Source: Sulfurovum sp.
Lineage (GTDB): Bacteria; Campylobacterota; Campylobacteria; Campylobacterales; Sulfurovaceae
Assembly (NCBI GenBank): GCA_027049035.1
Contig: JALTVI010000090.1
Span: 1 to 64,000, forward strand
Reading direction: 5' to 3'
DNA: 64,000 nucleotides
The notes under the pieces are model-generated. The model was not told the DNA's origin. It was given only the letters and a program-made list of their open reading frames with translations, and made no database searches. Each line of letters opens with the position of its first letter. The first letter of the stretch is position 1. Both the position numbers and the translations under genes were made by a program. This document shows positions 10,751 through 55,422 of this stretch, piece after piece.

Positions 10751-10770
10751 GCGGCAAAGGGTTAACTAGC

Positions 10771-10826
10771 GGGTAGCGGGTAACGGGTAACGGGTAACGG
10801 GTAACGGGTAACGGGTAACGGGTAGC
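10771..10826. repeat. Tandem heptamer array, GGGTAAC x 8
   Basis: Eight contiguous 7-base units: GGGTAGC, six GGGTAAC, then GGGTAGC. Every unit supplies a GGG tract separated by four bases, so the plus strand fits a G3N4 G-quadruplex pattern. The array lies just upstream of the promoter at 10745-10750. Confidence 0.95.
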
Positions 10827-11076
10827 AATTTTTCATAGCTTACTTGAAATGAATCTTAAATGTCTATGTGTGGATTATTATGAGTATTTTGGAAAGTAAA
10901 TTATTTTGTTTGAGTTGTACTTGGATTTTCGGGTTTGGGTAAAGGAGCTTACAATACACAGAAAGTAAAGATCTCTTTTTGATTTTCTGTAGGTTTGTGG
11001 GTTATTATGAAGGAGCTTACGGATTAGTAAGTGACTGAATAATTCCCGCAAAGATGCAGGAAAGCAGAAAGAGAGG
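10827..11076. other. Intergenic region without recognised gene
   Basis: An AT-rich stretch between rplS and the heptamer array. The string AAGGAGCTTAC occurs twice (near 10944 and 11012). I see no open frame with a ribosome binding site and no clear terminator for rplS. Confidence 0.5.
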
Positions 11077-29099: not shown

Positions 29100-29151
29100 A
29101 TCTCTCTCTTTGTACTAAAATAGAAGCGGAGCCATGCACCGCTTACCTAAG

Positions 29152-29179
29152 CTATTCACTATTATCTATTCACTCTTCA
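29152..29179. repeat. Heptamer array, CTATTCA x 4
   Basis: Units CTATTCA, CTATTAT, CTATTCA, CTCTTCA, located between glyQ and the end of purE, 5 bases from the purE stop. Confidence 0.85.
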
Positions 29180-29184
29180 CCAAT

Positions 29185-43339: not shown

Positions 43340-43340
<1 letters not shown>
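42807..43340 (-). CDS. CopD-like four-helix membrane protein
   Basis: The 177-residue protein has four hydrophobic segments, with THVLSAFVWVGGMIAIRFAV (about residues 18-37), FHLVIPFIIAIIVTAVLMAVGLG, IVHIKEVVWMVMAANFTWMYF and a C-terminal IALGVLALWLGV. Conserved histidines in helices 1, 2 and 3 (His18, His63 and His110, approximately) suggest a haem- or copper-related integral protein as in CopD/DUF families. It is directly after alaS (1-base overlap). Role unknown. Confidence 0.6.
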
Positions 43341-45916
<2,576 letters not shown>

Positions 45917-46572: not shown

Positions 46573-47649
46573 TCAAAGGTAGTTTTGTAAAAGTGCCGCA
46601 ATCTGGCGGCTGCCGTCACGTTCGATGCTCTCCATCAGCCCTTTGCTCTTTTGTGAAAGATCTTCATCGAGCAACGCAAGGACTTTCTCTTTCTCTATTT
46701 CGTTTTCACGCATCACCCACGCCAGCTCTTTCTCAACGAGGAATTTGGCATTGTGGTACTGGTGGTCGCTTGCGGCGTAGGGGTAGGGAATGAAGAGTGT
46801 CGGCAGTGCCGTGGCTGCAAGCTCCCAGAGTGTCGATGCCCCTGCCCTTGCAATGGCGAAGTCAGCCTCCTTCATATAGTCGGCAAGTTTTGTCGTAAAA
46901 CCGAAGACCTCCGCATCAATGCCAAGATCACGGTACGCCTCCTCCACCGCTTCGATGTTGTTCGCCCCTGCCTGGTGGATGATGCGGATACCGCGCGCTT
47001 TGAGTTCGGGGGCGATGGAGAGCGCCAGCTCGTTGATCGCACGCGCCCCCTGTGAACCGCCAAGGAATATGACAGTTTCCACTTTTTCACGGATACGGGC
47101 ATTGTTGAAAAAGACCTCTTTGACGGGATAAGCTTTGATGGGACTCTCGTCAAGATAGGAGCTGATGAAGACATCGGCGTAGGGTTTGAGCAGTCTGTTG
47201 AGCGAACCCAGCGCGGCATTCTGTTCGTGTATCACCAGCGGCACCCCGCTTGTCTTTGCAGCAAAGGCCGTGGCCGCCGAAGAGAACCCGCCTACGGAAA
47301 AGACCACTTTAGCATCGTGCTCTTTGAGCAGTTTTCGCGCCTGCAGATAGGCTTTGAACATCATCCAGAGTGACTGCACTTTACCCAGTCCTTTCTGGTT
47401 GACCACCCCCTTGGTTTCCAGAAAATATTTCGCATCAAAATCGCTATCATCTTCGAACCACTGCCTGTCCTGCCCCTTTTCAGAGCCAATGTAAACCAGA
47501 CCACTGCCATCTCCCTGCTTCCTACTACCTGCTACCTCTCCATTCTTCCCTGCTCCCTGCTCCCTGTCACCTGCTACGATCGCCTCTTTCACCGCACGAA
47601 TGATCGCCAAATGGCCGCCCGTGCCTCCCCCTGTCATCACAATGCTCAT
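46573..47649 (-). CDS. murG: MurG N-acetylglucosaminyltransferase, with heptamer-repeat insertion
   Basis: MurG makes lipid II from lipid I at the inner membrane. The 358-residue protein has TGGGTGGHLAIIRAVKEA at the N-terminus, VVFSVGGFSSAATAFAA, VIHEQNAALGSLNRLL, FLGGSQGARAINELAL and ARAGASTLWELAATALPTLFIPYPYA. Between KEA and LVYIGSEKGQDRQWFE, about 21 extra residues (GDREQGAGKNGEVAGSRKQG...) are encoded by nine heptamers (47513-47575). They fall in a surface loop between the first strand-helix pair and the next strand, so activity is likely kept. ftsW lies 28 bases upstream. Confidence 0.95.
   Translation of the reverse strand: MSIVMTGGGTGGHLAIIRAVKEAIVAGDREQGAGKNGEVAGSRKQGDGSGLVYIGSEKGQDRQWFEDDSDFDAKYFLETKGVVNQKGLGKVQSLWMMFKAYLQARKLLKEHDAKVVFSVGGFSSAATAFAAKTSGVPLVIHEQNAALGSLNRLLKPYADVFISSYLDESPIKAYPVKEVFFNNARIREKVETVIFLGGSQGARAINELALSIAPELKARGIRIIHQAGANNIEAVEEAYRDLGIDAEVFGFTTKLADYMKEADFAIARAGASTLWELAATALPTLFIPYPYAASDHQYHNAKFLVEKELAWVMRENEIEKEKVLALLDEDLSQKSKGLMESIERDGSRQIAALLQNYL
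47513..47575 (-). repeat. Heptamer array inside murG, ACCTGCT/CCCTGCT type, 9 units
   Basis: Nine in-phase 7-base units on the plus strand (CCCTGCT, TCCTACT, ACCTGCT, and so on), exactly 63 bases and thus 21 codons. The unit matches the arrays flanking the panC/prfB promoters. Confidence 0.95.
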
Positions 47650-51826: not shown

Positions 51827-51857
51827 AAGAGGGTAGAGGGTAGAATGTAGCAGGTAG
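51827..51857. repeat. Heptamer array, left arm of an inverted pair around the panC/prfB promoters
   Basis: Units GAGGGTA, GAGGGTA, GAATGTA, GCAGGTA, G, preceded by AA. It matches the reverse complement of 51949-51979 at 29 of 31 bases. Confidence 0.9.
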
Positions 51858-51948: not shown

Positions 51949-51979
51949 CTACCTGCTACCTGCTACCCTCTACCCTCTT
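51949..51979. repeat. Heptamer array, right arm of the inverted pair
   Basis: Units CTACCTG, CTACCTG, CTACCCT, CTACCCT, CTT. It lies in the prfB leader, so only this arm is transcribed with prfB. Confidence 0.9.
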
Positions 51980-55043: not shown

Positions 55044-55243
55044 AAAAATTAAAAGTTAAAAATTAAAAATTGTAGAAAATTTCTGATTTGCAGTAGATTC
55101 CTCACAGAGAGTGCAAGCACAAGGAGGGTTGTTGAGAGGGAGCATACGGTCAAGTATGTGCACCCCACTTGCGCTTTAGCGCCGGGGGTATCGGCATTTA
55201 GTGCCAGAACCGAACAAACTCCCTCAAAGATGCTGTGAAGCAG
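55044..55243. repeat. Repeat unit A: AAAAATT heptamers plus structured element
   Basis: Four 7-base units (AAAAATT, AAAAGTT, AAAAATT, AAAAATT; 55044-55071) lead into a segment beginning TGTAGAAAATTTCTGATTTG. The segment is shared with unit B (55277-55422) but carries two extra stretches of about 25 and 49 bases. No protein-coding gene is seen in 54993-55427. Confidence 0.85.
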
Positions 55244-55276: not shown

Positions 55277-55422
55277 AAAAGTTAAAAATTAAAAGTTAAA
55301 AATTAAAAAATTGTAGAAAGTGTAGAAAATTTCTGATTTGCAGTAAATTTGAGGGTTGTTGAGAGGGAGCATACGATCAAGTATGTGACCGAACAAACTC
55401 CCTCAAAGATGCTGTGAAGCAG
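55277..55422. repeat. Repeat unit B: AAAAATT heptamers plus structured element
   Basis: Four heptamers (55277-55304) and a 102-base segment (55321-55422). On the minus strand the segment folds as TTTGAGGG..CCCTCAAA, TTGTT..AACAA and CATAC..GTATG nested together. It lies 5 bases past the tsf stop, so in this copy it could serve as the tsf terminator or 3' UTR. Confidence 0.8.

Follow-up and report, generated by a model that had tools for sequence, protein, structure and literature searches.

The murG gene in a 64,000-nucleotide stretch (hereafter the window) of a Sulfurovum genome of 2.49 Mb carries a degenerate tandem array of 7-base units within its coding sequence. Our analysis indicates that this insert probably stems from short repeat elements whose families are native to the genome, and that it is DNA of a heptamer array lodged in a permissive turn at the MurG surface. 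The evidence comes from the periodicity of the array itself, from the variety of repeats that occupy the same turn in related genomes, from the motifs that adjoin arrays elsewhere in the genome, and from a second essential gene, alaS (encoding alanyl-tRNA synthetase, AlaRS), in which a similar loop can be followed across the genus. Coordinates are collected in Table 1.

Heptamers in the MurG turn

Read along the coding strand from 47577 to 47515, the array consists of nine in-phase units, in the order GTAGCAG, GTGACAG, GGAGCAG, GGAGCAG, GGAAGAA, TGGAGAG, GTAGCAG, GTAGTAG, GAAGCAG. Six of the nine agree with GTAGCAG or GGAGCAG at 6-7 of 7 positions, and units 5 and 6 are badly degenerate. Tandem Repeats Finder (TRF) reports a period of 7 with 9.1 copies (score 42) and a period of 14 (score 56). 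Identity at a lag of 7 is 0.655 (lags 2-6 and 8-13 give 0.19-0.42) and was equalled in none of 20,000 codon shuffles and none of 20,000 base shuffles; within the 64 kb, equal lag-7 periodicity over the length of this array is found at just one other place, the array at 10767. In an AlphaFold2 model the insert lies between helix 12-32 and strand 51-56, that is, in the turn between helix 1 and strand 2, and residues 32-47 have a predicted local distance difference test (pLDDT) score below 50, compared with a model mean of 87. The insert is accordingly predicted to be a disordered turn.

An earlier reading of the window from its letters alone (the sequence-only reading) had described these nine in-phase heptamers, 63 bases in all, with coordinates that were right to within 2 bases, and had placed about 21 extra residues between KEA and LVYIGS. 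The extra residues are real, 20 or so in number: the span from TGGGTGGH to YIGS measures 51 residues in the window MurG and 29 in most MurGs of the 78 genomes of the genus that we compared, many of which are draft metagenome assemblies. That reading had also proposed aligning relatives and modelling the loop; relatives without the insert do exist, and the model agrees with a disordered turn. Its arithmetic fared less well. It had argued that 63, being divisible by both 3 and 7, keeps the frame, but the measured differences in loop length are +66 nt relative to the short loop, +42 nt relative to genomes G041 and G050 and -33 nt relative to the nearest relative, G048; these are not all multiples of 7, and 63 bases as the size of an insertion event is not confirmed.

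The reading frame itself has mattered. In a pure heptamer array the same seven codons appear in all three frames, so that, on a given strand, a unit free of stops in one frame is free of them in every frame, and a unit stopped in one is stopped in all. On the purine-rich strand TAG is present in the GGTAGCA and GGAATTA units and absent from GGGAGCA, and a pure GGTAGCA array yields TAG in every frame. Both codons at risk of TAG in murG read GAG or AAG, and the TAG-giving unit in alaS is likewise changed. These observations support the view that in essential genes solely in-frame, stop-free versions of arrays persist, and they bear out the earlier suggestion of selection for reading frame. In some cases an array apparently provides the stop codon of the preceding gene or stands immediately after it.

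A longer MurG turn is found throughout the nearest clade of 11 genomes and also in G038, G046, G022, G062, G025, G073, G047 and G031; the sequence-only statement that relatives have a short loop thus holds for most Sulfurovum MurGs and fails for these. The DNA that fills the turn is of unrelated kinds. GGGAGCA-type heptamers occupy it in G048, G053, G038, G046, G022, G062 and, weakly, G063; CCGGGAG heptamers with a hairpin in G037; four copies of AACGCTC in G055; TTCACTC with a hairpin in G001; palindromes resembling repetitive extragenic palindromic (REP) sequences, CTTCGACAAGCTCAG, in G025, with a similar palindrome in G073; the palindrome TCGGGG...CCCGA in G047; and a 37-residue version without clear heptamers in G041, G050 and G023. 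In-frame palindromes in genes for functional proteins occur in AlaRS as well (G003, G067, G073 and others). As far as the sequences and a tree computed with the loops left out indicate, the MurG turn is a recurrent landing site for different heptamers or palindromes and not the trace of one event, which refines the earlier claim that repeats had spread into an essential gene: dispersed heptamers do occupy murG, though not through a single spread. The 3' part of the window array is shared with G048 (10 differences in 57 aligned bases), so the array is older than the split between these two genomes. Genomes with heptamers in the MurG turn also have far more heptamer matches genome-wide (Mann-Whitney p 8.5e-6, relatedness not removed).

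Motifs beside the arrays

Head-to-tail 7-nt units occur beyond chance at many dispersed loci of the window genome, with few or none at other lags. The arrays described here were picked up with patterns and models and form a sample rather than a full inventory, and counts refer to matches, not to arrays; pattern searches with four heptamer families gave many matches, and reversed-pattern controls gave close to zero. The units of the MurG inserts turn up again in the non-coding DNA of the genomes that carry them, and the earlier assignment of the murG unit to the family seen beside panC and prfB is correct, CTACCTG being equivalent to GTAGCAG. Arrays of the window genome have flanks in common whatever their unit, and most of those sampled adjoin one of two unit-independent motifs, which define what we call class I and class II elements.

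Class I elements consist of a 33-nt motif, TTAAGnTTnnnTTCAAnnAAnCnATGnAAAATT, followed directly by pyrimidine-rich heptamers. A model of this motif (R2), built from 17 flanks, matches 37 copies in the genome; both it and the class II model were trained on flanks that had first drawn attention beside arrays. Among the best 30 of these 37, an array (lag-7 score of at least 12) stands immediately after the motif in 27 and before it in none, and control lags of 5, 8 and 10 give no arrays. Nine of the 30 are flanks used in training; of the other 21 copies, 18 have an array and 3 have one to three units, and none has an array on the opposite side. Class I arrays are built from at least 14 different units in 4-19 copies each, mostly perfect. 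It is worth recording that class I motifs (L358-L387) often have another dispersed palindrome just upstream, of the ATTCCTGCTTTCGCAGGAATGA or GAAGCTAAAGCTTTCGCTTCC type, and that TTAAG and ATGnAAAAT within the motif were considered as a candidate promoter. Growth of arrays at one end was examined and rejected (14 distal versus 6 proximal deviations, p 0.086, not significant), as was a phage origin of the motifs, since viral contigs contained no exact match to either motif pattern.

Class II elements consist of a covarying hairpin, AATAAAAGC-stem-GCAWACCnA, followed by a heptamer tail of about 31 nt. In the hairpin 94% of pairs are kept, with two-sided changes in 5 of the 7 pairs. Copies at new loci reach the strict lag-7 score downstream in 15 of 27 cases, never upstream and never at control lags, and the tails of most of the remaining copies are visibly heptamer-like. 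There are 88 matches in the window genome and none in 21 of the 78 genomes; their number tracks that of array matches (Spearman 0.88, relatedness not removed). The halves often form inverted pairs in which a purine array, a core and a pyrimidine array follow one another, several of them with a 66-bp core. Across such pairs the core ranges from 55 to 106 bp (examples are L188 at 9692, L190 at 12015 and L288-L303).

With the class I motif on a fixed side of its array and the hairpin motif standing before its tails, the arrays, judged from their sequences, look like parts of defined repeat elements. The fixed position of the class I motif beside arrays of any unit, the best lead on how arrays arise, suggests site-directed reiteration of 7-base sequences. 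A bolder and more tentative idea, which we regard as possible but rather doubtful, is that a dedicated system in Sulfurovum, directed by a fixed 33-nt or hairpin site, builds tandem arrays from any 7-base sequence next to that site, with the arrays also invading loops of essential proteins.

Table 1. Genes, heptamer arrays and adjoining motifs located in the window.
Feature	Position	Strand	Basis and remarks
murG	46573..47649	-	358 aa, intact; sole match to MurG in the genome
GTAGCAG/GGAGCAG array in murG, residues 25 to ~46	47513..47577	-	TRF, unit reading, shuffles, structure prediction
alaS	43340..45916	-	858 aa
GAATTAG array inside the alaS loop	44368..44401	-	TRF and relatives' sequences; second essential gene, ~3 kb from the murG array
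GGGTAAC array, ~8 units, of a class I element	10767..10826	+	TRF, flank comparison
Class I 33-nt motif TTAAGATTCATTTCAAGTAAGCTATGAAAAATT adjoining the GGGTAAC array	10827..10859	-	Flank comparison, model R2
Degenerate class II element: hairpin motif (29119-29150), then heptamer-like tail CTATTCACTATTATCTATTCACTCTTCAC	29119..29181	+	Class II model
AGAGGGT/GTAGCAG array near the panC start, left arm of an inverted pair	51828..51857	+	TRF, comparison with relatives
CTACCTG/CTACCCT array before prfB, right arm of an inverted pair	51949..51978	+	TRF, comparison with relatives

Origin of the murG insert

Based on these comparisons we can present a rough proposal for how the insert arose. Array DNA would have been copied or inserted into the MurG loop, either through template switching that involved other arrays or by an enzyme. 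The majority of these insertions would have been lost through a broken frame or fold, and the survivors would have drifted, as a disordered turn that lies apart from the conserved core may tolerate nearly any sequence. The copy in the window, which has no motif of its own, would then be an array standing alone or what is left of an element.

Several points weigh against this proposal. Neither a class I nor a class II motif lies at the window array, so its derivation from an element rests on analogy with G037 and G001; the class II model, built without these sequences, matches the murG insert of G037 (E 0.0045), but its match to the hairpin of G001 is weak (E 0.1). The degeneracy of the array leaves its source unit uncertain, and no intermediate or new insertion was seen among the compared genomes. 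Finally, the site at 10767, when G050 is compared with the window genome (G000), resembles in-place growth from a seed, an indication that slippage also acts.

Could local slippage alone, of the kind suggested for bacterial long simple sequence repeats, account for the insert, with a short seed in the murG loop growing in 7-base steps and the heptamer length reflecting polymerase bias? Two papers that cite earlier work describe heptamers as the commonest repeats of 5-11 nt in many bacteria and mention slippage as a proposed cause (PMC4679880; PMC4692102). At the 10767 site, G048 has a short seed, GGGTTAAGGGTA, and both G050 and the window have long arrays of different units. However, the same MurG turn is occupied by unrelated units and palindromes, a single 7-base step in a single-copy essential gene would break the frame, and arrays elsewhere begin at a fixed motif, which slippage alone does not predict; we therefore consider this explanation unlikely.

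The intergenic site between panC and prfB also varies. Its arms are GTAGCAG and AGAGGGT in the window; in G048 and G053 a hairpin core is flanked by arms of GGAATTA and of CTCCT type, and in G041 the site holds a palindromic element. Taken together, the differences at this site and at 10767 indicate that block replacement and in-place growth both occur, and array content and length vary between species (all our comparisons are across species). At panC-prfB apparently the same array-core-array element lies in opposite orientation in G063 (L304) and in the sister species G053 (L306) and G048 (L270). Elsewhere in the window, two A+T-rich heptamer arrays (AAAAATT/AAAAGTT) lie about 200 bases apart, at 55044-55071 and 55277-55309.

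A different possibility is that the clade has had its longer turn since long ago and that the codons of this turn merely look repetitive. The sequence-only reading would have yielded to the same extra loop, with unrelated codons, in all relatives; a longer loop does extend across the whole nearest clade, with DNA that differs between members, but most MurGs of the genus are short. The clade-wide length and the 37-residue versions without clear heptamers agree with such an ancestral feature. Against it stand the murG periodicity, far beyond chance, the perfect or near-perfect heptamers of other units in several other members, and the recurrence of the same units in non-coding DNA. In its pure form this explanation is contradicted, and we think it improbable; a milder version, in which an old longer turn was later overwritten by repeats, is compatible with an origin from the genome's repeat elements.

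Turnover in alaS and comparison with known repeats

A similar turnover can be followed in the alaS loop. Across the genus the site holds GnAATTA (11 genomes), GTAGCAG (8 genomes), AACGCTC, AGCGTTC, AGAGTTA, several palindrome types or a plain short loop, the types having been assigned by hand from the sequences. On a quickly built tree of 63 genomes, with loops removed beforehand, 23 changes of type are required, 16 of them among array-bearing genomes alone. The alaS genes of sister species G002 and G004 have 73 identical bases up to the loop and then different repeats. Synonymous differences in the loop core amount to 24 in 370 codon pairs for GnAATTA-type pairs (187 expected) and 39 in 238 for GTAGCAG-type pairs (127 expected), that is, 3-8-fold below expectation; the expected values come from the same amino acids in the alaS flanks, and with this matching a codon-use artefact was rejected. 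Divergence in the eight flanking codons on either side is about that of the remaining gene, and this holds even for the first two codons of the loop, so that the edges are codon-sharp. The low loop divergence and sharp edges imply either that the loop DNA is far more recent than the gene around it or that it is kept uniform with repeats at other loci, and the common phase and common GAG substitution of the GnAATTA loops appear to favour homogenisation or block replacement rather than wholly independent insertions. Two further genes of the window genome contain heptamer DNA (L183 1565-1603; L186 1422-1588). One is mfd; the other encodes a lipoyl/2-oxoacid dehydrogenase acyltransferase (E2-type), in which the heptamers lie in the linker and belong to three families.

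Exchange of alleles between species, in which segments of murG or alaS undergo homologous recombination, might also spread loop variants. G002 and G004 differ by about 6% in alaS (L211, L208) and about 17% in murG, which suggests a recent exchange of alaS, and the alaS genes of G041 and G050 are nearly without differences over about 1 kb around the loop. However, since the codons beside the AlaRS loop in same-type pairs are as diverged as those elsewhere in the gene, any exchanged tract would need to have been smaller than the loop itself, and repeats are not created by exchange. As a main cause it is contradicted by the sharp AlaRS loop edges, and we regard it as very unlikely. Simple repeats elsewhere switch genes by slippage (reviewed in PMC4679880), a precedent for the idea that array length tunes or switches MurG in the manner of phase variation, but an off-state in single-copy murG should be lethal, a degenerate array should slip little and the loop sequence is not conserved between species, so that we give this idea hardly any credence. 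The murG insert itself is probably without function, a record of element activity in the genome.

We found no paper on Sulfurovum heptamers in the open-access literature. Cyanobacterial short tandemly repeated repetitive (STRR) sequences were reportedly described by Mazel in 1990. The arrays resemble these and the GGGNATC repeats of Xanthomonas and Nostoc in being heptameric, G-rich on one strand, mostly non-coding and, as far as comparisons between species go, variable in copy number, and differ in having a fixed adjoining motif, none being reported for GGGNATC or STRR repeats in the part of that account used here (Rehm, 2015; PMC4692102). TAACTGA heptamers are known from marine Beggiatoaceae, Cyanobacteria and Bacteroidetes, with no mechanism evident (MacGregor, 2015; PMC4679880). 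As with those repeats, dispersed arrays are found in a sulfur oxidiser, mostly between genes, with some in open reading frames (ORFs), in the case of TAACTGA including the end of a MurG, and with a similar stop-codon logic. Whereas TAACTGA is one dominant unit, a single Sulfurovum genome has at least 14, beside a 33-nt or hairpin motif, and the Sulfurovum inserts are found within conserved enzymes, where the unit at a given site differs between relatives. Like these inserts, Rickettsia palindromic elements and REPs in ORFs are short dispersed in-frame repeats in genes for functional proteins, and REP ends give flanking ORFs their stop codons (PMC3733652, where Sulfurovum NBC37-1 is listed with GTAG and CGTC repeats); in contrast to the Rickettsia elements, the commonest inserts in Sulfurovum are heptamer arrays, with palindromes as alternatives at the same loops.

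Class II elements have the short imperfect palindrome, conserved flanks and many copies by which REP sequences and REP doublets forming hairpins (REPINs) are recognised, a combination that the murG insert of the window lacks. Their half-sites, covarying hairpins often found as inverted pairs, recall REP, REPIN and bacterial interspersed mosaic elements (BIMEs) moved by REP-associated tyrosine transposases (RAYT, Y1). Unlike in those systems, the constant partner is a heptamer tail and the number of hairpins does not follow the number of Y1 matches. A Y1/RAYT transposase as the mover was rejected on these counts across genomes, in which Y1_Tnp matches do not track hairpins (34 hairpins and no Y1 match in G012; 31 Y1 matches and no hairpin in G071).

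In summary, heptamer arrays in bacteria have long been known without a mechanism, and a conserved site beside many different units offers a practical way of approaching one. The loops of MurG and AlaRS illustrate that essential enzymes naturally tolerate repeat DNA. Furthermore, the replacement of units between sister species, together with codon-sharp edges, makes it possible to measure how fast and in what way arrays spread.
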